From Rhodocollybia butyracea (taxonomy: Eukaryota > Basidiomycota > Agaricomycetes > Agaricales > Omphalotaceae), in assembly GCA_015501585.1 (NCBI GenBank), contig JADNRY010000330.1, forward strand, positions 1 to 64,000: DNA of 64,000 nucleotides, given 5' to 3'. Below the pieces are notes generated by a model that was given only the letters and a program-made list of their open reading frames with translations, was not told the origin of the DNA and did no database searches. Positions 9,810 to 42,386 of the stretch are shown one piece after another. The translations under genes and the position numbers were made by a program. Within the stretch, counting starts at the first letter, position 1; every line of letters starts with the position of its first letter.

Positions 9810-10653
9810 TATCATGCCCTAGGCATATACAGACTGCCAACGTGTCCCGCTTACTGTTACATAACCCGCTTCCGCCGCATTTCCGGTTCCGATACACTTC
9901 CACTTTGCTTCCGTTTTACTTTTTCCTTCACTGTACACTTTCTATGATCCCGTCGATCCATTCTCCATCATTCTTACAATCATACATATGCTTTATGCTC
10001 ATCCCGCTGCTTCCGCTTATGTTCATCGTTGGCTTTCATCCCTTGTACTTCTTTTGGCTATTCTTGTCTTTTCTACTCTCAGATTATTACCTATCGCTAC
10101 TCCGGTCCTTGAGTACCCTTTATATAGTTCTGTACCATGTCAAGTACAGTAGATTGGAAATATTGCTTAACCCCTTGACTCGTGTGCTCTTGTGTGTTCC
10201 GGTTTCTCGCTTTATCTGTTTCTTTAACTCTGTTTCTTCACTCCATCGTTTTCACAACCTCTGCAATTTACTATCATCTATTTGGTTCCGCTCTGTTTGC
10301 GCCGCATCAGGTCAGCTACCGCTTGACCTTCCGCTTCCGCTCATATCGCTATCAAAGCTGCTTGCACTTAGTGGGTCCTACCCTTCGAGTCGGAAACTCA
10401 TCTACTCTTAGGCTTACTTGCCGAGTTCATTCTATCGCCTGTACGGACCTGCCGTCCCTACATTAGTCCCTTGGACAATCCCAACACGAGTCTTACATCC
10501 CATAGGCACTTCGGAACCGTTCTACACTCACATCCTTTCACATCTCAAACCAACTTTCCCAGTTCGGCTGAACAACAGAAGTACGGAGTGTATCCGCACT
10601 TTGGTTTCCAGGTTCGTAACCCGCGCTCGAAGGATTCCGCCTAGATCCTTACA
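9810..10653 (+). repeat. 5' LTR
   Basis: This 844-bp repeat is nearly identical to 13660-14503. Differences seen include TATC versus TGTC at the first bases, CACATC versus CAGATC, TTCGGC versus TTCAGC and GAGTGT versus GAGCGT near the right end. Frames inside it are rich in Phe/Leu/Ser and look non-coding. Confidence 0.88.
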
Positions 10654-13659: not shown

Positions 13660-14503
13660 TGTCATGCCCTAGGCATATACAGACTGCCAACGTGTCCCGC
13701 TTACTGTTACATAACCCGCTTCCGCCGCATTTCCGGTTCCGATACACTTCCACTTTGCTTCCGTTTTACTTTTTCCTTCACTGTACACTTTCTATGATCC
13801 CGTCGATCCATTCTCCATCATTCTTACAATCATACATATGCTTTATGCTCATCCCGCTGCTTCCGCTTATGTTCATCGTTGGCTTTCATCCCTTGTACTT
13901 CTTTTGGCTATTCTTGTCTTTTCTACTCTCAGATTATTACCTATCGCTACTCCGGTCCTTGAGTACCCTTTATATAGTTCTGTACCATGTCAAGTACAGT
14001 AGATTGGAAATATTGCTTAACCCCTTGACTCGTGTGCTCTTGTGTGTTCCGGTTTCTCGCTTTATCTGTTTCTTTAACTCTGTTTCTTCACTCCATCGTT
14101 TTCACAACCTCTGCAATTTACTATCATCTATTTGGTTCCGCTCTGTTTGCGCCGCATCAGGTCAGCTACCGCTTGACCTTCCGCTTCCGCTCATATCGCT
14201 ATCAAAGCTGCTTGCACTTAGTGGGTCCTACCCTTCGAGTCGGAAACTCATCTACTCTTAGGCTTACTTGCCGAGTTCATTCTATCGCCTGTACGGACCT
14301 GCCGTCCCTACATTAGTCCCTTGGACAATCCCAACACGAGTCTTACATCCCATAGGCACTTCGGAACCGTTCTACACTCACATCCTTTCAGATCTCAAAC
14401 CAACTTTCCCAGTTCAGCTGAACAACAGAAGTACGGAGCGTATCCGCACTTTGGTTTCCAGGTTCGTAACCCGCGCTCGAAGGATTCCGCCTAGATCCTT
14501 ACA
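13660..14503 (+). repeat. 3' LTR
   Basis: Starts TGTCATG immediately after the polypurine tract at about 13648-13657 and ends TTACA before the R2 sequence resumes at 14507. It pairs with the LTR at 9810-10653 over its full 844 bp. Confidence 0.88.
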
Positions 14504-22991: not shown

Positions 22992-25900
22992 ATGAGTCCA
23001 CTTCGTGTCGACGTCCGTCTTCCCTCATCCTCGTCGTCTCGATCATCAGGATCATCATCAGGACTTCTATCTCCCGATTCTGTTGTCTTAGCATTCGAAA
23101 AATTCTCAAATGTCACTGAAACCGTCAAGGAATACTGTCCTCGGATCCGTATCTTGGTCATGGGCAGAAGGAATGCTGGGAAGACCACCTTGCTGAAAAA
23201 GATGACCAACAGCTCGGATGGACAAGTGGTTATGCACAACGAAAAAGGGAAAATAGTGTGTATTCTTTCTCTTTTCCGAAGTCTTCTTGCAAGCTGAGTT
23301 CTGTTTAGGTGAGCGAGCCGGGTATTCTCGAACCTTCGGTAGAGGTAAGCTCCACCCGGCCCCAATGCGTCTCACCACTGAGACTATCCAGCGCGGTGGT
23401 AGTCATATCGAGTATGAGATCACCTACCCAAGGTACTCATATTCCTGCCGTGAACTTAGGAAGCTACATTGACGAACACCTTTCAATTCGCAGTGACTTA
23501 GACTACGTTTTCCATGATTCGAAAGGGATGGAGGCAGGGTCTGAAATGGAACTGAAGATTTTGAGAGACTTCATCGATGGTAGACGGGATAGAAAGTTTA
23601 TGAAAGATCAGTTGCATGTCATCTGGTGAGTGTGATTGCCGGTGGTAGCGGAAATGAGCATTCCTCATCTCGAAAAGGCTCTGCCTTCCAGTGGACAACG
23701 ATCGGCCCTTGGGACCACACGAGATGGCTTTCTTCGAAAATGCCGGAACACGTGGAGGTCAGTACTTTTTCTTTCGAAAATCGAGCAAATCTTTCATGAA
23801 ATTCTAGTTCCTGTTATCGCCATCTTCACAAAATTCGAATGGAGGGTAACCAAGGCTTACGACATCTTGCGAGATTCGGGGAAAGATCACAGTGAAGCAA
23901 AAAAAGGAGCACTACAGCTAGCCCGTAATGAGTTTGAGGAGACTGTAGTGCGGCAGCGTTTTCACGACGGTCTGAGTCATAAACCGATTCAGTACATTTA
24001 TCTTCAAGGTACAGTCGTTATGAACGTGCATGCATGGTGAGTACTGACATATAGCTGTTTCAAGATATGAACAGGGGTGGCAACTGTGATCAACTCACTG
24101 AAGTCACTGCATTGGTGGTTCAGACCGCGGTTAACCAGAAGCTTTTCAGAGAGATAAAGCAACATAGTGTCAAGGTTTCGATGGCAATCGCTCTTGCCAA
24201 GTAGGTCGTGGCTACTCTTCAATTCGTATTCATTGATAACGCTTCAAATTAGTGCAATTTCCATGACCAAGTTGAAAGCTCAACTTGCTGTAGGAGAGAG
24301 GTCTTTGATTAAGGCTTGGACGATTTTTTTGCTCTCACTTTTTGCACAATGGGTAAGATGGTTGTTTATTCCTGTCCGAGTCCTCTTACGCCTATCATTA
24401 GGATGTAAGTCAGCTTCTTCTTGTCGAAAGACCTGGAGTGCTCATTATAAAGGATTTTTGATTGTACAGGAGGTGAGGGCTCCATTGCGAATACTCAAGT
24501 TTTGCTGACACGGTTTTTTCAAGTATTTTGTGAGTCGTTTATCGGTACTATAACTACCATCGTTTAAGATCATCTGGCTGTCTTGTTGTCGTTAGACAGT
24601 GAGCCAATCCCTTACATTGTTACATCCAAACCGTTAACAGAAATCCCAAATCACCCAGATGGTGAGCTCCTCGCGTTAACTCGTCTATGACAAACCCTCA
24701 AAACCCTACTCATTCGATACATGTATAGAAAGCAAGTTGTTCATTACATGTCCCATAACACTAACTCAATTCACCATTATAGCACGTAAGCATGCCTACC
24801 TAGTATCATCACCAGTTGAATCTCGTCCAGGTCGTTGATTGTTTCTCATTTAGGAAGTATGATTACCTTTTCTTCCCGTAGTTCATTGGTACTGATCTTG
24901 CTTTTTTTGAAGTGGGTACGCCGATAATTATGATCACGTCACCTCAGTAAACTCAAAGCATTTGCTCTTCTCTGCTCCGGTTGTAGAATGTGAGCTCTCC
25001 TATTTCGAGGAATGATTGTCAAAATTGATCCTGTTTCAGTGGGTACGCGCAATTCCATATAGCTATATTTTATTAGTTAATCCAGCTCTTGCTTCGGTAT
25101 GCTACAGAACGTAAGTCATGATTTTTCTCAAACTCGATCCAGAGCTAAAGTTAATGTTCATGATATAGTTCTCCGATACAGACTTCGATCTGGTGTGTAA
25201 TTCGAGTGCTAGCAGAAACTCAGAGGACTGACAAGCTAAATATCTAATAGGATGTTCGTACTTGCTTTCTGTGATTGATTGCGTATTGCTGAAGTTCTTT
25301 CTCCTTTAAAATTGACAGATTGTAAGCTGATTTTCTTGTCCTTGAGCTGTGTACTTATCTACCGCCTCCCAGAAGGTTTGCTCGAGAATTCACGGGAGTT
25401 GTGGCTCGTCATTGGCTAATGGTCTTGTTCATTCTATAGGTTGACCCTAAACGAGCACTTATTGTGGATATAATCTTGAGAAGTTGTATCTCCTGGGTGA
25501 GAATTGTATCGACTTCTTATACGCATTCACTTACCTGTAGCGTCAGATCGATCCTAGTACCAGAACCGATCTGCAACTGCTCACTTACTTCGTCGGTAAG
25601 TAACTACTGCTCAGTAGACAAAATAGTCAACCTCTACTTCCATAGACGTTATCATGATCGCCGAGCACTCGTTCTGGATCGAGGATAGAATGCCTTGGAA
25701 ACATCTCAATCGGGTCGTATCTCAGTACCAAATCTGTCCTCAACGTCATGCAATTCGAGCGACGGTGCAAAAACTGTTCCGAGAAATGAACGATCCGGTA
25801 CATCAGCATAGCGCATTCGCGATGAATGGACCTCTTCCCAGCAGGACTTTGCAGGTTCTAGCATTGAAATTCATGCCGATGCTGCTAGATCATCGATTTT

Positions 25901-26076
25901 TGTCGATTTCTTCCGATTCAACATCCCTTTCTTCCGAATCAATATCCCTTTCTCCATGTACGTCCCTAATGTTTTTTTGGCGCACCGAGACTAATGATGC
26001 ATTAATTACCGTAGAACTTTTTGCTGTAGTACTTTCATTTTGGCTATCCCGATTAGTATGCTGGCACTTTTTGTAG
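22992..26076 (+). CDS. P-loop GTPase with single-codon exon train, copy 1 (27 inferred exons)
   Basis: Exons 1-8: 22992-23255, 23309-23344, 23392-23432, 23494-23625, 23678-23757, 23808-24008, 24065-24200, 24253-24352. Then sixteen tiny exons (24402-25375), then 25440-25496, 25541-25595 and 25646-26076; all phases fit (534 residues). The G domain has G1 GRRNAGKTTLLKKM, G3 DSKGMEAG, VDNDRPLGP.EMAFFEN, and G4 as TKFE where TKxD is usual. WTIFLLSLFAQW may be a membrane-associated helix. The C-terminal exon carries MIAEHSFWIEDRMPW and ATVQKLF. A TATA-like CATAAAAGC lies about 75 bp upstream of the start. A small-GTPase-like role is inferred; substrate unknown. The last intron/stop is uncertain: paralogues stop about 30 codons earlier. 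Confidence 0.85.
24353..25439 (+). other. Train of microexons in GTPase copy 1
   Basis: Between TTT GCA CAA TGG (ends 24352) and GTT GAC CCT (starts 25440) sit these exons, each preceded by AG and followed by GT or GC: GAT 24402, GAG 24470, TATTTT 24524, ACA 24596, ATG 24659, AAA 24729, CAC 24783, GAA 24854, TGG 24913, AAT 24987, TGG 25040, AAC 25108, a 24-mer 25169-25192, GAT 25251, ATT 25319, AAG 25373 (start positions). The seventeen introns are 49, 65, 51, 66, 60, 67, 51, 68, 56, 71, 50, 65, 58, 58, 65, 51 and 64 nt, ordinary sizes for such fungi, and all are phase 0. Splice use is inferred. Confidence 0.85.
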
Positions 26077-26650: not shown

Positions 26651-29627
26651 ATGAGTCAACTTGATCTCGAACCTCCCCCGTACTCCGTAGGGCCTCAGTC
26701 TCCTCAGACTCCTGATTCTGTTTTGGTAGCGTTTGAAAAATTCTCAAATGTCGCCAAAACCGTCAAAGAATTCTGCCCCCGGATCCGCATCTTGGTCATG
26801 GGAAGAAGGAATGCTGGGAAGACTACCTTGCTGAAAAAGATGACCAACAGCTCAGATGGACGAGTGATTCTTCGGAACCAAGATGGGAGCATAGTGTGTA
26901 TTCTGTATTCTGTTTCTTTTCCGAAGTCGCATAAGCTGAGTTCTGTTTAGGTGAGGGACCCGGGGATGATATTGGAACCGTCGGTAGAGGTGAGCTTCTC
27001 CCGTCCCCGATGCGTTTCAACGCTGAAACAATCCAGCGTGGTGGTAGTCATATTGAATATGAGATCACCTACCCAAGGTAACCATATTCCTGTGAACTTG
27101 GGATAGCTAAATTGACGACCACCTTTCAATTCGCAGTGACTTAGACTATGTTTTCCATGACTCAAAAGGGATGGAGGCCGGGTCCGAAATGGAACTTCAC
27201 ATTTTGCGAGAATTCATCGATGCCAGACAGAAAAAACAGTTTATGAAAGACCAGTTACATGTCATCTGGTGAGTGTAATTGCCAGTGGTAGCGGAAATGA
27301 GCTCTCCCCCCATCTCAATTTCCCCACAAGGCTTTGCCTTCCAATGGACAATGATCGTCCATTGGGACCCCAAGAGATGGCTTTCTTCGAGAATGCTGGA
27401 ACGCATGGAGGTCAGTCCTCTTTCTTTCGAAAATCAAGGAAATCTTTCATGAAGTTCTAGTTCCTGTTATCGCCATCTTCACCAAGTTCGAATGGCGGGA
27501 AACCAAGGCTTACGACATTTTGCGAGATTCAGGGAAAGAACACGGTGAAGCAAAACAAAGAGCACTACAGCTAGCCCGCGATGAGTTTGAGGAAACTGTA
27601 GTGCAGCAGCGTTTTCACGACGGTCTAAGTCATAAACCGATTGAGTACATTTATCTTCAAAGTGCAGTCCCATGTTATGAATGTGTATGTATGATGAAGA
27701 CTGACGCATAGCTGTTTCAAGATATGAACAAGGGTGGCAACTGTGACCAACTCACTGAAGTCACTGCATGGGTGGTTCAGAACGCGGTTAACCAGAAGCT
27801 TTTCGGAGAGATAAAACAACGTGATGTCATGGTTTCGATGGCAATCGCTCTCACCAAGTAGGTTATTCTTCTATTCGTCTTCGCTGACGATAATGCTTCA
27901 AATTAGCGCCATTTCTATGACAAAGTTAAAGGCGCAACTCGCTGTTGGACAGAAGCCCGTGATTAAAAAATGGACAATTTTTTTGCTCTCATTTTTTGCA
28001 TACTGGGTAAGCAACAGATAATTGTTTATTGGTGTCTGTATCCTCTTACACCTATCTTTAGGCTGTAAGTCAGCTTCTTGTCGAAAGACCTGGAGTGCTG
28101 ATTATAATGGATTTTTGATTGTATGGCAGGAGGTGAGTGCTCCACTGCGGATATTCAAGTTTTTCTGATACGCTTTTTCCAAGTATTTTGTGAGTCGTTT
28201 ATCTGTGCTATAACTATCGTCGTTTAGGTTCATCTGGATGTCTATTGTGGTTAGGAAGTGAGCTGATCCCCTTACGTTGTGGCAGCCAAGCCGTTAACAG
28301 AAATTCCAAATCATCCAGATGGTAAGTTCCTCATCTATAGGAAGCCTTCCAAATACCTAGTACTCATTCGATACATAGAAAGTAAGTTATTCCTTCATGC
28401 CTCGTAATATCCCACTACCACCATCTCAATTAATCATTTTAGCACGTAAGCATGCCTACCCAGTAATCTCACCAGTTGAATCTCGTCCAGGCGATTCATT
28501 TCTCCTTTAGGAAGTATGATTACTTTTTCTTCATGTGTTTCTTTGAGACTGATTTTGATTTTTTGAAGTGGGTACGCCGATAATCATCCATGTCGCCTCA
28601 GTAAACTCAAAGCATTTGCTCTTCTATGTTCCGGTTATAGAATGTGAGCTCTCCTATTTGAGAAATAAGTGTTTAAACTGATCTTGTTTCAGTGGGTACG
28701 AACAGTTCCATATAACCTTGTCTTAATTGGTTAATCCAGCTCTTGCTTCGGCATCCTACAGAACGTAAGTCTTGATTTTTCTCGAACTCAACCCAGAGCT
28801 AAAGTTAGTTTTGATGATATAGTTCTCTAATAAAGAGTTCGATTTGGTGTGTGATTCTACCACTAGCAGAAACCCAGGGGACTGACAAGCTGAATATACG
28901 GTTATTGATAGGATGTTGGTATTCGCTTTCTGTGATAGAACGCGTATTACTGAAGTTCTTCCCTCCTTATAATTGACAGATTGTAAGCTGAGGTTCCTCC
29001 AGATTCTTGAGCTATGTACTTATCTACCGCCTCCCAGAAGGTTCTCTCGAGTGTCCATGGGGGTTGTTGTTTGTCATTGGCTAACAGTTTTGTTCAATCT
29101 CTAGGTTGACCCAGGACGAGCACGTCTCGTGGATATAATCTTGGAAAATTGTATCTCCTGGGTGAGAATGATGTCGACTTCAGTTATAAGCATGCACTTA
29201 ACTATAGCGTCAGATCGATCCTAGTACCAGAACTGATCAGCAACTGCTTGCTTATTTTGTTGGTAAGTAACTGCTCAGCAAATACCATTTCATATGATAG
29301 TCGATGTCCATAGACGTTATCATGATCGCTGAACACTCGTTCTGGGCCGAGGATAGAATGCCTTGGAGACACCTTAATCGTGTCGTATCTCAGTACAAAA
29401 TCTGTCCTCAGCGTCGTGCAATTCGGGAGACGGTGCAAAAACTGTTCCTAGAAATGAACAGTCCGGCATATCAGCATCTGGGCGCATTCCTGATGAATGG
29501 ACCTCTTCCCAGCAAGGCTTTGCAGGTTCTAGCATTGAAATATATGCCGATGCTGCTGCATCATCGATTTCTGTCGATTTCCTCTGATTCAGCACCCCTT
29601 TATCCGTGTATGTCCCTTACTTATTGA
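26651..29627 (+). CDS. P-loop GTPase with single-codon exon train, copy 2
   Basis: Same architecture as copy 1. The start is MSQLDLEPPPYSVGP, followed by G1 GRRNAGKTTLLKKM, PGMILEPSVE, RGGSHIEYEITYP, G3 HDSKGMEAGS, LCLPMDNDRPLGPQEM, the VPVIAIFTKFEW exon with G4 TKFE, and RDEFEETVVQQRFHDGLSHKPIE. The microexon train runs 28062-29040, followed by VDPGRARLVDIILENCISW from 29105. It ends SISSDSAPLYPCMSLTY at 29627. It is preceded by a GCATAAAAGC TATA-like box and a C-rich tract just before the ATG. No breaks were seen, so it is likely functional. Confidence 0.83.
28062..29040 (+). other. Train of microexons in GTPase copy 2
   Basis: Same order as copy 1: GCT, GAG, TATTTT, GAA, ATG, AAA, CAC, GAA, TGG, AAT, TGG, AAC, a 24-mer (F S N K E F D L), GAT, ATT, AAG, every one bounded by AG and GT. 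Here the donor after AAA is GTAAGT, where copy 1 has GCAAGT. Confidence 0.83.
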
Positions 29628-29994
29628 GGCAACCAGATCCTAATGATGCATACCGTTTGACTACTGTCACCGAATTTTTTCAGTGCATACTTAGTACTTT
29701 TATTTTGAGTATCCGATCGGATATGTCACTTTTTATATTTTGTAGCATGCAGTTGGATATGAACAAACGTTAATTGTATTTTGTACTACTAAGTAGTTTT
29801 GTTTCATAGCGTTGCGAGATAACTTAGCTGAAATCAACGCGTAACGCGTAACATCCAGTGAAGAAATTATACAGGCCCTACGACCGGCGTTAAATTTAAA
29901 TTACATGATGCGACGATCTCTAATAAGCGCCTTGGGCCCATTAAAGTCTCTTGTTTTCCCCCTGCCTGTCAACCATCTACTCTTACACTAACTC

Positions 29995-32900
29995 ATGAGT
30001 CAACTTCATCTCAATCTTCCTTCAGGCTCCTCGGAAACATCAGAGCCTCAGTCTCGTGACCCTGTTTCGATAGCATTCGCAAGATTCGCGAACGTCGCTG
30101 AAACCGTCAAAGAATACTGCCCTCAGATCCGCGTCTTGGTTATGGGCAAAAGAAACGCAGGGAAGACCACCTTGCTTAAAAAGATGACTCACAGCTCGGA
30201 CGGACAAGTAACTCTTCGGAATCAAGATGGGGATATGGTATTCCGTTTAGTTTCCGACTCTCCGAATTTTCCTCCAGCTTGAGTTCTGTTTAGGTGAACC
30301 CGGGAACCATCCTCGAGCCTTCCGTAGAGGTAAGCCTCACTCGTTCCTAAAGCGTCTGGAGACTGAAACTAATTCAGCGTGGGGAGAGTCGTATTGATTG
30401 GGAAATCACCTACCCTAGGTACCTACATTCCTGTGAATTCATCATAGCTAAATTAACAAAAACCTCGTAGCGACTCGAACTATGTTTTTCATGACTCGAG
30501 AGGAATGGAAGCTGGGTCCGATCAAGAGGTGCAATTTTTAAGAAACTTCATGCATCGTAGACGGAATATGAACGCTCTGAAAAATCGCCTCCATGTAATC
30601 TGGTGAGTCTGATTGCCTGTGGTAGCAAAAACGAGTTCTCCCCTCAATATATACCCCAAAAAGGTTTTGCCTTCCGGTCGACAATGATCGTCCCTTTGGT
30701 CCACATGAGATGGCTTTCTTCGAAAATGCCGGAACGGGTGGAGGTCAGTCCTCTTATTTTCAAGAAATAATGAAATCTTTCCATGGAATTTTAGTTGCTA
30801 TTATCGCCATCTTCACAAAGTTCGAATGGAGAATAACTAAGGCTTACGACATCTTGCGCCAAGCTGGGATAGGTCACACTGAAGCAAAAAAAGAAGCACC
30901 ACAACTAGCCCGTGATGACATGCAGAAAATAGTGCAGCAGCGTTTCCACGATGGTCTAAGTCATAGACCGATTGAATACATTTTCCTTCAAGGTACAACA
31001 GCGAGCTCTGAACATGTATGCGTAGTGAGTACTGATACGTCTCAAGATATGGACCAGGACCGTGGTAATTGTGACGAACTTGCGCGAGTCACTGCACGGG
31101 TGGTTCAGAGCGCGGTCAATAATCACCTTTTTTCAGCTATAAAGCACAGTGGTGTCAGAATTTCGATGGCAATCGCTCTTGTCAAGTAGGTGATGGTCAT
31201 TTTTTCTGTTCACATTCATTTGAATCCATCAGTGCTATCTCGATTACAAAAATAATGACGGAACTCATGGTTGAAAAAAGTATACAACTGAACGAATGGA
31301 CGATCCACATGCTGTTACTTTTTCCTTACTGGGTGAGCCGCAAGTATTTCAATTTATGTTGGTCTAAACACAATTAGGATGTAAGTCATGTTGTTATCGA
31401 AAGGCTGCGGCGTGATTCTGGACTTCACCTTCTAGACTGTAAGTGTTCACTCATAAGTTTTCAGTTTTTTCCAACTTGGATTTTTCAAGTATTTTGTGAG
31501 TTGTTCATCGGCACTGTCACCGTCAGAGCTTAAGACCGTCTGGCTGTCTTGTCACGGTCAGAATGTAAGCCAGTCCCCTTACTTTGTGTCATCTGACCCA
31601 TCAATATAAATCCCAAAACTTCCAGGTGGTGAGCTCCTCACAATCAACTTATCTATGGCCAGCCTTTGGTTACCTACTCGTTTGATATATAGGAAGTAAG
31701 TTATGCATTCCATGTCTCTGCAGCACTGTAACACTTGATGTTAGCACGTAAGCACACTTTCTGCCTAGTATCGTTATTGGTTGGTTCTCGCCTCATCGTT
31801 TTTTCTTTAGCAAGTAAGATTACTTGTTATTCGTATATTCAGTTGTACCTTATGTTGCTCTTCAAGTGGGTACACATATCATTTTGGCCACATCACCTCA
31901 AAGCTGAAGACTCGCTCCGTCGGATTGTAGAATGTGAGCTCTCTATTGAAAAAACAATAATTAAACTGATCCTGTTTTAGTGGGTACGCCTTGCAAATCC
32001 ATACATATCAATACTTGATCAGCTAATCCAGCTGCTTCGGTATACTATAATAGACAGCAAGTCTTGGCTTTCACTAAAACTCGAATCCAAAGCTAAAGTT
32101 ATGAGTCCTGAATGTAATGAAGGCTCGTCCTTATGGCGGTTTCGTGTGGAATTTTTTCCCAATTAGGGTTGATCTTGCCAAATTTGGAAGAATCATTTCC
32201 CCATATTTAGAAATGTCAAAGCGCTTGACATGTGACTTTCTGATGTGCCACTTATTTCATGTTACAAAACTTTGCTGCATCTGATACCTTTTTACTCTTG
32301 AACTTCTTGCATCAAACACTGTTGTGTTGCACCTCTAATGTGCAATTATCGGTGCTGTACATTCTTTTTGCCACATGTGACACGGTGTTTTTCATCTTAA
32401 TAATACTTCCATTTTTGTAGCCCCCACACTTTTCATCAGTGTCATTGCAGTGCACAATTCATAACTAATCTCTTGCAGACTCGTACCTGCCACGCGCTTG
32501 CGCGGTCCCACACTCGCAAGTTAATGCTATAGTTTTCTGATACACAATCCAAACTGGTGCGTAATTTGAGCACTATCAGAGACCCAGAGGACTACTGACA
32601 AGCTCGATCTGTATATAACAGGCTGTCCGTATTTGTTTTCTGTGCGCTTGAACTGTAACGCTCATTGCTGAATCTTTATTTCCTCATAATTGATAGATTG
32701 TAAGCTGATATTTCCCATTCCTGAGCCATGTTCTTATAGCCGCCTCCCAGATGGTTTGCCCGAGCTTTCGCAGGAAGTATAGCTTGTCACTGGTTAACGG
32801 TTTTGTTCATTCTTTAGGCTGACCGTGAACGAGCACGTCCCGTGGATTTAATCGTGCACAATTGTGTTTCCTGGGTGAGAATCGTCTCGACATCAGCTAT

Positions 32901-33339: not shown

Positions 33340-33465
33340 GGCACCCAGATCCTAATGATGCATTACTGTAGAACTTAGTGCTTTGTAATGCTTTGACTTC
33401 TATGTATCCCGATACATTGACTTTTTGTAACCTGTCAGTTGTGTACACTCCGAACAAACTTTAAC

Positions 33466-34412
33466 TTGTGAGTGTGGGCCACTGCACCAAGCGCATGGCA
33501 GGTACGAGTCCTGTAGAAGACTAGTTATAAAATCTTGAAAGAAAAAATCAGTGTGATGAATGAGAAGATAAATGAACACGCACTCATAAAGCTATGCCAT
33601 TTTGCAGGCAAGGTGACTGAAGACAGAAGTAACAATTGAAGTTGCAGCAATAAATAGTACCAAGGAGGCGCTTTGGCAGCCATGCACAACGCATCATACC
33701 TATTCCCAGCGTCAGCCAAGACCAAAAGGTTGAGATTGAGTAACCATGCTTTTTTTTCGAGATGTTATACCCAGATTTTTGGGATGCAGAGATGGATGCG
33801 ACAAAGTTTGGTGTAGGACCACTGTCAGATTGTACTGAAGATCATCGAGAGCTCCAGATGAGAGATGAGGATATGCTGAAGGAGATCTATCTGTCTTTGT
33901 AACATTCAGTCTCCAAAACACAGTGAAAATGTTCAAAGAAACGTACCAAGATGCACTACACTACAAGCAATACAACCTCCATCTACTGCATTTTTGTTTC
34001 CTTCAAAACTTCAACCTCCATTGAGTTTTACAGCAGCCATGACTTCTGTTCCACCATTGAGGTTTTGACCCAAGCTCAGACAAGCACTGCCGTTTGACAG
34101 AGGCGCAATGCCAGTTTCTAAAGAAATTGTTCGGAAATTGTGAAGAGAACATCCTTCAGCTTGTCAATGTGGGTTTGCCAGTAATCCATATAGGATTTTT
34201 TGGCTTTTGAGATGAAAGTGGAAGCCATGTCTGTCAATTAATTAATTGAACAAATTGAAGAGGAATGATCACATGCCGAGCGCTTTGACATTCCCAAATA
34301 TGGTGAAACGATTCTCCCTAATTTGGACAAGATCAACCCTAATCGGGATAAAATTCCCACGCAAAACCGGCCATAAGGACGAGCCTTCATTACATTCAGG
34401 ACTCGTAATCGT
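33466..34412 (-). mobile_element. Transposon carrying a captured piece of RRP42
   Basis: Both termini match the short element at 32104-32515 in reverse orientation: the right end around 34270-34412 matches its first about 130 bp and the left end 33466-33520 its last about 55 bp. The interior, absent from the short element, is an RRP42 gene fragment that still contains an RRP42 intron. That points to DNA-level capture as in Pack-type transposons rather than retroposition. No transposase is encoded. Confidence 0.65.
33665..34228 (-). pseudogene. Captured 5' fragment of RRP42 (exosome subunit)
   Basis: Begins ATGGCTTCCACTTTCATCTC (34228 downward) exactly as the resident gene at 42428. It then has a deletion, LALRLCQTAV..-type frames, and continues through SPSAYPHLSSGALDDLQYNL to the ADAGN..DAL..AA region near 33665. 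The intron before ACTGAATGTTAC is retained. Internal stops and deletions make it non-functional. It preserves four A where the resident gene has five at the first frameshift, useful for judging that frameshift. Confidence 0.78.
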
Positions 34413-34991: not shown

Positions 34992-36440
34992 TTAAAGCGT
35001 TCCTGAATATACGCCTTCCTCGCTACGATTCCGAACAGTGGTAAGATTCTATTCTCATTTCGGTGATGAGCACAACATCCTCATTTCTCACCCCTCCAAC
35101 GCTCTCGTACATCTTGAGCACTTCCTGGTTGATGTGCTTTGAGTCACATACAGGAGCGAGAAGATGTGGGGAAAAGCAACAGCCTGGTTCGACGGTCTAC
35201 AGGAAAAGGTAAGACATGAGCGAGCCGTAGATCGACAGAAAGGACTGTAAATGCATCCTTACCACAATCATGTTCTTCTGTAACGGCAGCCTCAGCCTCA
35301 GATAGGTGTAGTAACTCTCATGTCCAATCGGCATGCATTTGTTCTCCATCGTCAGGTTAACAGCAGGTTTCAATGCTAGCGCTTGGCACATCATGAACGT
35401 CCATACCCAAGCTGCGACCCAATCCATGAGGGAAGAACGCAGAGCTTATCCCAGAAGCCAGTATCTTCTCCTCGTCATGCTCCGCGCCCCAGGCGCCATT
35501 GCCAGCAGGAGCCGCAGATGAGAGTGAGGAAGAAGAGGGAGATTTAAAGATATGGAGACGTTGGGAGCCTTTGACCAGGATGCGATGATAGAGGAGGTGA
35601 ACTGCAGTGAACTCCAGGCTTGAGCATGTCCATCGGAAACTGTGGCGTGTGGTATCAGCGCCTTTCGCTCTACAAAGAAAACCGACCTTTTGCATCTCAG
35701 CACCAACTCGTAGATCGCCCCTCTGGAGTGAACTTCTCACCATTACCAACAGGCATAGTACGGGTGATATCGGAGGCATAACAGTCCCATTGGCATCCAG
35801 CGTCGATTAAGAGAACCTGAGGGTTGAACGTTGAACGTTGAGCGCTGAGCGCTGAGCTCTCGAGACCCGCCATGCGCAAATTCGTTTTTGTTATGGTGAT
35901 CATGTGGATGGTCCCATCCTAATTCGCGGTCGTTGCAGGAATAGTGAAGTGTAGAGGCACGGGTCGAGGCCGCTACGATAGGTAAATATGCTTGATGAAC
36001 AGCGCTATGAAAAGTGCAGCTGATTTATAGAATTTCTCAAATTGACTTCAACGAGACCACGCACCCTTCTCGACGGCAAGAAGCAACGAAAAAAGCCTCA
36101 GCTTCGGCCTCCTTCTCGATAGACCATCCACCAGGTAACAAAGGCCGGTCTACACTAGCTCCGGGACCGCGTTCAATAGACCCCTTGACAGCCTTGCCCA
36201 AAACTCGCATGACTACTTCATGAGCTCGTGAACAAATTTCGTTGACTACCGTTAGTACGAAATCTCATCTTTGATCAGTCACTAATCGCAGCATCTTTGC
36301 TGTCAGGCGAAAGAACAAGATCCGTGAAATCTTTTGGGATCGCGGGGAAAAGAGGGTACGCTCAAAAAAAGTGTATTGCATGGTGTCGGGAAAAGCGTCG
36401 TGCGTCAAAGCGAGGACGAGGAGCGCCCGAGCCGCCTGCT
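34992..36440 (-). pseudogene. Xaa-Pro dipeptidase (prolidase) copy, 5'-truncated
   Basis: Minus-strand M24 metallopeptidase sequence close to the copy at 40272. It has the metal-site strand [41 protein letters not shown] and the EPGCYFSPHL..APV exon, and ends at TAA 34992-34994. It lacks the N-terminal exons, has an internal deletion near 36270, and the HGLGHS histidine is Arg here (HGLGRS). Homology with the 40-42 kb copy starts about 34826. This is a segmental duplicate that accompanied the GTPase array. Confidence 0.78.
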
Positions 36441-36817: not shown

Positions 36818-39769
36818 ATGAGTCAACTTCTTCATCTTGATCTTCCCTCAGTCTCTTCATTATCACCTGGGCCTCAGTCACCTCAGTCTCCCGATTCTGT
36901 TCTAGTAGCGTTTGAAAAATTTGCGAATGTCGCTGAAACCGTCAAAGAATACTGCCCTCGGATCCGCATCTTGGTCATGGGCAAAAGAAATGCTGGGAAG
37001 ACTACCTTACTGAAAAAGATGACCAACAGCTCGGACGGAGAAGTGATTCTTCGCAACGGAGATGGGAAAATAGTGTGTACTCTTTCTCTTTTCCAAAGTC
37101 TTCTTACAAGCTCAGTTCTGTTTAGGTGAGTGAGCCAGGGATTCTCGAACCTTCGGTAGAGGTAAGCTCTAGTACCGTCCCGACGTGTCTCAACACTGAA
37201 ACTATCCAGCGTGGCGGTAGTCATATTGAGTATGAAATCACCTACCCAAGGTACGTATATTCCTGCGAACATGAGATAGCTACATTGATGAACACCTTTC
37301 AATTCACAGTGACTCAGACTACGTTTTCCATGATTCGAAAGGGATGGAGGCTGGGTCTGAAATGGAACTGAAGATTCTGAGAGACTTCATCGATGATAGA
37401 CGGGATAGAAAGTTTATGAAAGACCAATTACATGTCATCTGGTGAGTGTGATTGCCGGTGGCACTGGTAGCAGAAATGAACTCTCTCCTCATCTCAATTT
37501 CCTCACAAGGCTTTGCCTTCCAGTGGACAATGATCGTCCATTGGGACCGCAAGAGATGGCTTTCTTTGAAAATGCTGGAACGCATGGAGGTCAGTCCTCT
37601 TTCTCTCTAAAATCAAGGAAATCTTTCATGAAATTCCGAGTCTAGTTCCTGTCATCGCCATCTTCACCAAGTTCGAATGGCGGGAAACCAAGGCTTACGA
37701 CATCTCGCTAGCTTCCGGGAAAAGACGCAGTGAAGCAAAACAAGGAGCACTACAGCTAGCCCGCGATGAGTTTGAGGAAACTGTGGTGCAGCAGCGTTTT
37801 CACGACGGTCTAAGTCATAAACCGATTAAGTACATTTATCTTCAAAGTGCAGTCCCATTTTATGAACGTAATACACGGGGAATACTGACGCACAGCCGAT
37901 TCAAGAAATGGACACTGAGGCTGGCAACTGTGACCAGCTCACCGAAGTCACTGCATGGGTGGTTCAGAACGCGGTTAACCACAAGCTTTTCGGAGAGATA
38001 AAGCAACATGATGTCAAGGTTTCGATGGCAATCGCTCTCGCCAAGTAGGTCATGGCTATTCTTCTATTCGTATCCACTGGGAATGCCTCAAATTAGTGCT
38101 ATTTCTATGACGAAGTTAAAGGCGCCACTTGGTGTTGGAGAGAAGTCCTTGCCAACTAAAAAATGGACGATTTTTTTTCTCTCATTTTTTGCATATTGGG
38201 TGAGCGACAGATGATTACTCATGGGCGTCTGAGTCCTCTTACACCTATCTTTAGGATGTAAGTCAGCCTCTGGTTGAAAGACCCGCAGTGCTGATAATGG
38301 ACTTTTGGTTGTATTGCAGGAGGTGAGGGCTCCATTGCGAATATTCAAGTTTTGCTAACGCGGTTTTTTTCAAGTATTTTGTGAGTGGTTTATCTGTACT
38401 ATTACCATCGTCGTTTAACTTCATCTGGCTGTCTGTTATGGTTAGGAAGTGAGCCGATCCCCTTACACTGTGGCATCTAAACCGTTAACAGAAATACCAA
38501 AACATTCAGATAGTGAGCCCCTCACATTGACTCGTCCATGTACAAGCCTTAAAAATACCTACTCATTCGTATATAGAAAGCGAGTAGTTCGTTGCATGTC
38601 CCATAAACACTGACTCAACTGATCATTTTAGCATGTAAGCACGCCTACCTAGTATCATTACCAGTTGAATCTCGTCCAGGCCGTTCACTGTTTCTCCTTT
38701 AGGAAGTATGATTACTTTTCTTCGTGTGTTTCTTTGATATTGATCTTGCTTTTTGAAGTGGGTACGCCAATAATTATGATCATGTCTCGGTAAAACTCAA
38801 AGCGTTTGCTCTTCTCTGTTCCGGTTGTAGAATGTGAGCTCTCCTATTTGAGAAATAAGTGTTTAAACTAATCATGTTTCAGTGGGTACGAGCAGTTCCA
38901 TATATCCATATCTCACTAGTTAATCCAGCCCTTGCTTCGGTATACAGAATGCAAGTCTTGATTTTTCACGAACTCGATCCAGAGCCAAAGTTAATGTTAA
39001 TTAGTTCTCTGATACAGAGTTCGGTTTGGTGCGTAATTCGAGCACTAGTGGCAGAAACCTAGAGGACTGACAAGCTGGATATCTAATAGGATGTTGGTAT
39101 TCGCTTTCTGTGTAATCGAACGCGCATTGCTGATGTTCTTGCCTCCTTGTAATTGACAATGACAGATTGTAAGCTGAGATTTCCCCGGAATCTTTAGCTA
39201 TGTACTTATCCACCGCCTCCCAGAAGGTTTTCTCGAGAGTTCACGGGGGTTGTGGCTCGTCATTGGTTAACGGTTTTGTTCGTTCTCTAGGTTGACCCTA
39301 AACGAGCATGTCTCGCGGATATAATCTGGAAAAATTGTATCTCCTGGGTCAGATTCCTATCGACTTCAGTTATAGGCATACACTTACCTATAGTGTCAGC
39401 TTGATCTAGTGCCGGAACTGATCTGCAACTGCTTACTTATTTTGTTGGTAAGTAACTGCTCAGCAAATACCATTTTTAATTGGTAGTCGATCATGTCTAC
39501 TTCCATAGACGTTATCATGATCGCTGAACACTCATTCTGGGGAGAAGATAGAATGCCTTGGAGACACCTTGATTTGCGTCGTATCTCAGTACCAAAGCTG
39601 TCCGCAGCGTCGTGCAATTCTGACGACGGTGCAACAACTGTTCCAAGAAATGAACACTCTGGAGTATCAGAATCTGAGCACATTCCTGATGAATGGGCCT
39701 CTTCCCAGCAAGGCTTTGCAGGTTTTAGCCTTGAAATACGCGCCGATGCTGCTGCATCATCGATTCTGA
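36818..39769 (+). CDS. P-loop GTPase with single-codon exon train, copy 4
   Basis: Starts MSQLLHLDLPSVSSLSPG. G1 is GKRNAGKTTLLKKM, then PGILEPSVE, G3 HDSKGMEAGS, LCLPVDNDRPLGPQEM, and the VPVIAIFTKFEW exon. The train of tiny exons covers 38255-39226. VDPKRACLADIIWKNCISW follows, but its donor is GGGTCAGATT rather than GTGAGA, and the last exon stops at HHRF (39769), some 15 residues before the other copies. A one-base change near 39593 (GATTTGCGTCG) also disturbs the frame of that exon. It is probably a decaying copy. Confidence 0.75.
38255..39226 (+). other. Train of microexons in GTPase copy 4
   Basis: Exons: GAT, GAG, TATTTT, GAA, ATA, AAA, CAT, GAA, TGG, AAT, TGG, AAT, a 24-mer (F S D T E F G L), GAT, ATT, AAG. 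CAT and AAT are synonymous with CAC and AAC of copy 1. Donors after AAA and after the second AAT-type exon are GC (GCGAGT, GCAAGT). Confidence 0.82.
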
Positions 39770-40271
39770 TTGTCCATTTCTTCCGATTCAGCACCCATTT
39801 CTCGTTGGAACAGTCGAGCCGACACAATTGTAGTTGATATGACGTAGATTGCTTCGGAGAGTTCACTTGACGAAACGTCTAACCACTTTATTCTTCATTA
39901 TAAATATATTTATCGCACCATTTGCACAAATATTCTGGTTGCTTTCAATTGACCAGGAAGTATATTGACAACCGCTATCGGCGCCTCATCTTGGCTACAT
40001 ACACACATTAGTTCAGCTCTGCTTAGGTTGTGTGACTCTAGTCTGTCCACCTGATTTTGCTTGCCTCACAGTCAACCTTCCCCTTGTGGGTCGAACTAGA
40101 CCACATTAGATCTTAGCATAGTGTGATTTTCCCTGTTGAACTCATACACTCCTTACCGCTCAAAGTGGGCTCAGGCTCTGCTAAAAATACATGCATTTTC
40201 ATTTGGGCTACGTACGACCGAGCTCCGTGAGCGATACAATGATTACTGTTATTAATGAACGTCAACGTGCC

Positions 40272-42386
<2,115 letters not shown>

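Follow-up and report, generated by a model that had tools for sequence, protein, structure and literature searches.

The closest described relatives of the locus analysed here come from animals, plants and fungi. Schistosome MEGs carry short symmetric exons in runs inside one gene; as described, these exons measure 6-36 bp, account for some 80% of the coding region and undergo alternative splicing, and the proteins encoded are for the most part secreted or membrane-anchored (PMC5825161). A single-codon exon (ATG) is reported from Drosophila homothorax, where it relies on an immediately following GTAAGT donor, overlaps a 48-bp alternative exon and stands alone, outside any run (PMC7392893). Human RPS24 is reported to contain consecutive micro-exons of 3, 18 and 22 bp, which are alternative and repressed by PTBP1 (PMC12686416). 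Exons of 1 nt, far below ordinary size and missed by annotation, are described in Fusarium CYP621A (PMC12940212) and in plant APC11 and VPS55 (PMC8831610), in each case as a single exon per gene that is not symmetric. Among filamentous fungi, the transcription-factor gene Xlr2 of Trichoderma virens is described as having one regulated micro-exon (PMC11121469). In recursive splicing with RS-exons, a donor is rebuilt at the fresh exon junction or is situated near it, and in the account cited a second step removes the RS-exon (PMC6224609). Stwintrons are nested introns, one of which interrupts a splice signal of another (PMC6616335).

The window, by which we mean the whole stretch of 64,000 nt analysed (positions 1 to 64,000 of contig JADNRY010000330.1 of the basidiomycete Rhodocollybia butyracea), holds a GTPase gene in which a 1.1-kb stretch is, with high probability, a train of sixteen micro-exons, fourteen of them single codons, with splice sites conserved in four tandem copies and a likely fate of being spliced in full into mRNA. 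The likelihood of full splicing follows from an independent contig whose length leaves no room for the introns and which encodes the peptide of 12 of the 16 micro-exons of copy 2 unbroken; copy 1 and micro-exons 9-12 would, by analogy, behave like the covered part of copy 2. As in schistosome MEGs, the exons are short, symmetric and set in a run inside one gene; unlike in MEGs, 14 of the 16 measure 3 nt, the run accounts for just 24 codons of a GTPase (72 of the 1486 nt of coding sequence in the copy-1 model), and the one product recovered, P0065, includes all covered exons. The homothorax exon shares the single-codon size and RPS24 the consecutive arrangement, with three exons there against sixteen here. 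A recursive splice site, or ratchet, is a zero-length exon in which an acceptor is followed directly by a donor (AG|GT) and nothing is left in the mRNA. Here, at least three bases lie between AG and GT in 16 of 16 cases, those of 12 being retained in P0065, and, unlike with an RS-exon, each step leaves three bases in the mRNA. Every train intron has its own donor and acceptor, which sets the train apart from a stwintron. Micro-exons are a known kind, of which a train of single-codon exons is an extreme variant; no precedent for such a train was found in the portions of the open-access literature searched, including PMC11096116, PMC8624252, PMC5825161 and PMC12686416.

Copy 1 of the gene lies on the forward strand at 22992..25957, the model placing 27 exons before a conserved donor at 25958, and its train occupies 24353..25439. 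An earlier note on this DNA had read the stretch as sixteen tiny exons, and a scripted gene model places them identically: fourteen of 3 nt, one of 6 nt (TATTTT) and one of 24 nt, all 16 preceded by AG and 15 followed by GT, with GC behind exon 14. The 17 train introns measure 49-71 nt and are all phase 0, as had been proposed, and the frame is open from 22992 and includes the linking peptide D-E-YF-T-M-K-H-E-W-N-W-N-FSDTDFDL-D-I-K. That note had treated the train as a feature of one gene; the gene at 22992 does contain it, but it is present in four copies in the window. Micro-exons 9 (GAT, D; 24402..24404), 10 (GAG, E; 24470..24472), 11 (TATTTT, YF; 24524..24529) and 12 (ACA, T; 24596..24598) are placed by the model and by comparison of the copies, upstream of the part covered by P0065. 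The copy-2 counterpart of micro-exon 13 (ATG, M; 24659..24661) is residue 1 of P0065, and the counterparts of the remaining micro-exons lie within it: 14 (AAA, K; 24729..24731, with the GC donor), 15 (CAC, H; 24783..24785), 16 (GAA, E; 24854..24856), 17 (TGG, W; 24913..24915), 18 (AAT, N; 24987..24989) and 19 (TGG, W; 25040..25042), the last three identical across copies, followed by 20 (AAC, N; 25108..25110), 21 (24 nt, FSDTDFDL; 25169..25192), 22 (GAT, D; 25251..25253), 23 (ATT, I; 25319..25321) and 24 (AAG, K; 25373..25375), which has the unusual donor GTTTGC.

Exon 25 (25440..25496, scripted model) and exon 26 (25547..25595) follow the train. By analogy with copy 2, where the match to P0065 decides, exon 26 should begin at 25547 (acceptor CGTCAG|ATCGAT) and not at 25541. 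Copy 2 has one extra intron after exon 27, and its donor is present in copy 1 too. Each of the 16 micro-exons of copy 1 is no longer than about 30 nt and has GT/GC-AG introns on both sides. All have lengths divisible by 3, against only 4 of the 9 other internal exons of the gene, so that skipping any single micro-exon leaves the frame intact. When single train introns of copy 1 are retained instead, 13 of the 17 give an in-frame stop and the other 4 a frameshift. Elsewhere in the window, two identical repeats of at least 300 nt lie 3850 nt apart at 10000-10299 and 13850-14149 (the searched region began at 10000).

The same stretch could be read as one ordinary 1087-nt intron, or a few, in which the tiny exons are chance AG-NNN-GT strings. 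Exon 8 joined directly to exon 25 also stays in frame, and the NCBI model P0011 of Marasmius crinis-equi has next to nothing between the same W and the exon that follows; both fit such a reading. Against this, the other introns of the copy-1 model are 44-61 nt long, and the 1087 nt contain exactly one complete chain with GYNNG donors, introns of 45-75 nt and exons of 3, 6 or 24 nt, or of multiples of 3 up to 24 nt. A complete chain arose in 0 of 1000 dinucleotide shuffles for each exon-length set and in 0 of 5000 Markov randomisations both for lengths 3/6/24 and for any length from 1 to 30, tests that are partly post hoc in that the donor rule and intron range were derived from the train itself. 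When the whole window was scanned with the same donor rule, chains of 3/6-nt exons reached 15, 12, 12 and 8 at the four paralogues; outside them, no such chain in the window exceeded 3 on either strand, and the longest in 60 one-strand randomisations of the window was 4. The chain of 15, at copy 4, includes one chance 6-nt call within the 24-nt exon. Four distant GTPase paralogues (on C572, C455, C472 and C449) gave no chain above 3; their sequence after the G domain is continuous over at least 36 residues, and it aligns too poorly to indicate that the ancestral segment was a single exon. P0065 equals the micro-exon peptide exactly, which contradicts the ordinary-intron reading for copy 2, and all 34 splice dinucleotides of the train are conserved in the four paralogues. 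Chance AG-NNN-GT strings are ruled out by the randomisations, the window scan and the splice-site conservation, and an ordinary intron is improbable in the extreme.

Alternative exon chains within the stretch were also enumerated. When donors had to be GT/GC and to carry G at +5 in three or more of the four copies, there were no chains with introns of 40-80 nt; with introns of 40-130 nt, the same strict donors gave 377 in-frame chains, of which the longest equals the train minus exon 24, whose donor lacks G at +5 in two copies. Loose donors gave at least 1634 and at least 5271 in-frame chains (200,000 chains enumerated in each setting). The 12 longest of these listed are variants with 5, 7, 11, 13, 26 or 29 nt at exons 18 and 20-22, and the exact 16-exon train is absent among those 12. 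Because such variants pass, conservation alone leaves the boundaries of exons 18-24 not all fixed; for copy 2, they are fixed by P0065.

The train recurs in the tandem copies of the gene, all on the forward strand. The copy-2 gene occupies 26651..29694 (start codon read from the sequence, stop codon at 29692-29694), and its train, placed by copy comparison, window scan and P0065, lies at 28062..29040. The copy-3 gene starts at 29995 and has its train at 31378..32753, and the copy-4 train, placed by copy comparison and window scan, lies at 38255..39226. Copy 4 is flanked by direct repeats (35083-36239 and 40372-41519) that are 92-93% alike and about 5.3 kb apart. The assembly holds at least eight copies of the train, made up of the four diverged loci, with 69-86% identity across it, and near-duplicates of three of these loci on C304, C1345 (two) and C674, which are 99.1-100% identical over ungapped columns and are probably the other haplotype. 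Over the 16 exons of these eight copies, AG is present in 128/128 cases, GT/GC in 127/128 and a length divisible by 3 in 127/128; 135 of the 136 train introns measure 45-73 nt.

Among the four diverged copies, AG is kept at 17/17 introns versus 10/31 control dinucleotides within the same introns (Fisher 2e-6), and GT/GC at 17/17 versus 30/82 (Fisher 5e-7); in this matched comparison, the identical C1345 copy stands in for copy 4. Copies 2 and 3, the two that differ most from each other, keep 17/17 AG and 34/34 GT/GC versus 336/845 interior dinucleotides. G at +5 occurs in 17, 16, 16 and 16 of the 17 donors in the four copies. In six pairwise comparisons of the four copies, none of the 72 micro-exon positions is gapped, versus 14-66 gapped positions in the intron interiors. 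The letters of the micro-exons, on the other hand, vary: 45/72 are invariant versus 376/743 in intron interiors, no clear difference, and variable sites are spread equally over the codon positions (9, 9 and 9 of 24). The ordinary exons 8, 25 and 26 of this rapidly changing gene are also poorly conserved (123/212 invariant), and the micro-exons change at about the same rate as these. Residues YF, H, W, N, W and I are identical across all four copies. With sites and lengths kept and letters variable, selection is visible on splicing and length, and less so on residues.

Several alleles depart from this pattern. In the copy-3 allele L010 on C1345, the donor of exon 22 has changed from GT to CT; as a predicted outcome, either one in-frame codon is skipped or the allele is disabled. 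In one copy of copy 4, exon 11 measures 5 nt. Train intron 20 of copy 3 is enlarged to 476 nt by an insertion of about 422 nt at 32096-32517, with AAGTTA on both sides, and measures 54 nt in the C1345 allele, which lacks it. The insertion is probably a transposon; pieces related to it occur at 34269-34408 and 33465-33531, on the minus strand. At about 39390-39790 in copy 4, exon 26 is 1 base and exon 27 14 bases shorter than in copy 1, and the frame is lost, through decay or assembly error. In three haplotig copies, too, the reading frame of the gene differs.

The copies might instead be decaying pseudogenes whose splice sites persist through recent duplication or gene conversion. The lost frame of copy 4 and the frame differences of the three haplotig copies would suit such decay, if they are not assembly errors, as would the fast evolution of the micro-exon letters. 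Copies 1, 2 and 3, however, are open and without length mismatch over exons 7-27, the complete retention of splice dinucleotides between copies 2 and 3 concerns the most diverged pair, and copy 2 matches an independent contig. We regard decay as a slight possibility.

The independent contig was reached by a profile search, which returned P0065, a continuous ORF of 155 residues on a 902-nt JGI contig. Exons 13-28 of copy 2, joined and translated, give P0065 plus the stop codon, matching at 155/155 residues. P0065 includes 12 of the 12 micro-exons it covers, 11 of them single codons (M-K-H-E-W-N-W-N-FSNKEFDL-D-I-K), among them exons 22 and 24, those with the oddest donors; downstream of the train, it continues through ordinary exons with three more introns removed. 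Since the genomic span of these exons, 1376 nt, exceeds the 902 nt of the contig, the contig cannot hold the introns, and on the strength of that length we infer that it is a cDNA or a copy of one. Its coverage of copy 2 starts at micro-exon 13, so that inclusion in mRNA is supported for 12 of the 16 micro-exons of this copy, with exons 9-12 and all of copy 1 lying outside it. That the ORF begins exactly at micro-exon 13 may reflect either the start of the contig or retention of an intron immediately before that exon; four of the five preceding train introns would put an in-frame stop there. The proposal of the earlier note that the single-codon exons are real and joined into mRNA is thus supported by the conservation of splice sites in four paralogues and, over 12 of 16 micro-exons, by the spliced copy-2 peptide.

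P0065 also bears on the possibility that the train is real but optional, its single-codon exons being skipped in varying combinations to yield many in-frame versions of the GTPase. The symmetry of all 16 exons, set against 4 of 9 among the other internal exons, would let each skip stay in frame, one copy-3 allele has lost a donor, and the segment can be aligned to its relatives only with gaps of 4 and 3 residues. P0065, however, includes all 12 covered micro-exons, an outcome expected once in 4096 if inclusion were random at 50%, and the splice sites are kept at 17/17 introns in four copies. Variable skipping is accordingly improbable, and splicing of the full train is preferred.

The host gene is a fungal G-domain GTPase by motif (EngB/MMR_HSR1- or IRG-like). 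G-domain GTPases share a P-loop, GxxxxGK[ST], and a DxxG motif, and the copy-1 model has GRRNAGKT and DSKG. Its match to Pfam MMR_HSR1 is sub-threshold, at 18.1 against a cut-off of 21.9 bits. In the AlphaFold model of the related protein P0010, the best fold matches are IRG-type immunity GTPases (best E 5.8e-6, with modest TM-scores of about 0.45), and the G domain is mostly confident, with 10-residue means mostly of 80-98; residues 292-299, where the train-matching segment 293-318 starts, have pLDDT below 50, and the model is silent on the fold of the peptide. Related proteins occur in many mushroom-forming fungi, with 63 matches among 7991 scored candidates, own copies included.

Annotation handles the train poorly. 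The NCBI models of the four window copies, P0001-P0004 (BDP27DRAFT_*), break before, at or inside it. P0001 (BDP27DRAFT_1431904) is 100% identical to the copy-1 model over the aligned part and agrees with it through exon 8; it then reads through the first intron after micro-exon 9 (WDVSQLLL...) and ends there. In relatives, P0010 (on a 1435-nt contig) and P0064 (on a 1708-nt contig) are continuous ORFs that read W-NNFFHMERHYEVHWDWIEGWTPFL and W-NNFFHLEKHWEVHWRWFDGWDPFL where the train sits, a related peptide of about 25 residues. The Phe of YF and both Trp of W-x-W are aligned in 5/5 rows, in the alignment with the gaps mentioned above. As bare peptides, they resemble the train product weakly (67 to 1083 of 5000 shuffles were as good), so that it is their position that carries the argument from P0010 and P0064. 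The annotated P0013 of Marasmius tenuissimus continues beyond the same W, and the annotated P0014 of Stygiomarasmius scandens reads W-D-V-R, which would fit one D exon with a GT donor behind it.

How so many exons of this size are joined may be understood through intron definition, which is described as dependent on intron length and not on exon length (PMC8624252). In C. elegans, micro-exons with very short flanking introns are reported to be independent of PRP-40, in keeping with intron definition (PMC8378409). The train introns, at 45-73 nt, are like the other introns of the gene, from which we infer that each is recognised as a unit. In the mechanism proposed, U1 at the donor of each intron of about 50-70 nt would pair with branch-site factors at the acceptor of the same intron, and exon length would hardly matter; the micro-exons are presumably too small for pairing across the exon. 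Introns 3 nt apart would leave no room for two spliceosomes side by side, neighbours would be removed in turn, and each 3-nt exon would serve as the last three bases ahead of the next donor. Tentatively, and at somewhat less than even odds, we propose that a segment of the protein is built residue by residue by the spliceosome, with single-codon exons included at high fidelity through successive intron-defined reactions; the single-codon exon would be a unit of residue gain and loss in the family, and steric constraints would set no minimum exon size, even over many consecutive exons. Branch-site-like motifs were uninformative here, occurring in 16/17 train introns versus 7/9 others.

A stricter order is conceivable, in which the train works as a recursive ratchet, every intron removal leaving a donor beside the new junction and proceeding strictly 5' to 3'. 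Each AG-NNN-GT resembles a ratchet site with three bases remaining, and adjacent sites would, on steric grounds, be too close for simultaneous use. The next donor would lie 3 bases from the fresh junction, however, and in human cells the exon-junction complex is reported to block donors near fresh junctions and to repress micro-exons (PMC6224609). The R. butyracea genome has Mago-like and FF-domain sequences, the FF match being a candidate Prp40; the Mago-like sequence counts against a ratchet here as well. Moreover, if the P0065 contig retains the intron upstream of exon 13, removal was not strictly 5' to 3'. A strict ratchet is therefore doubtful, holding perhaps a quarter of our confidence, and successive intron-defined reactions remain our working proposal.

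With regard to origin, exons that are mostly of 3 nt and all in phase 0 do not look like what introns inserted at random into one exon would leave behind; with unconstrained lengths, the probability that 16/16 would be divisible by 3 is 2e-8. Either symmetric exons were selected, skipping being harmless, or codons were added singly as new exons. An introner-like origin was considered and rejected: introns 1-26 of copy 1 share only words of 8-9 bases, and nothing recent.

Exons this small leave exon definition no room, and a gene that would need about sixteen such splices in succession allows intron definition, the order of splicing and the minimum spacing of spliceosomes to be tested directly. 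The copies and alleles, among them a train intron of 476 nt and a broken donor, are ready-made natural experiments. Since the NCBI models of all four window copies break before, at or inside the train, genes of this kind may be going unnoticed in other fungi rich in introns.
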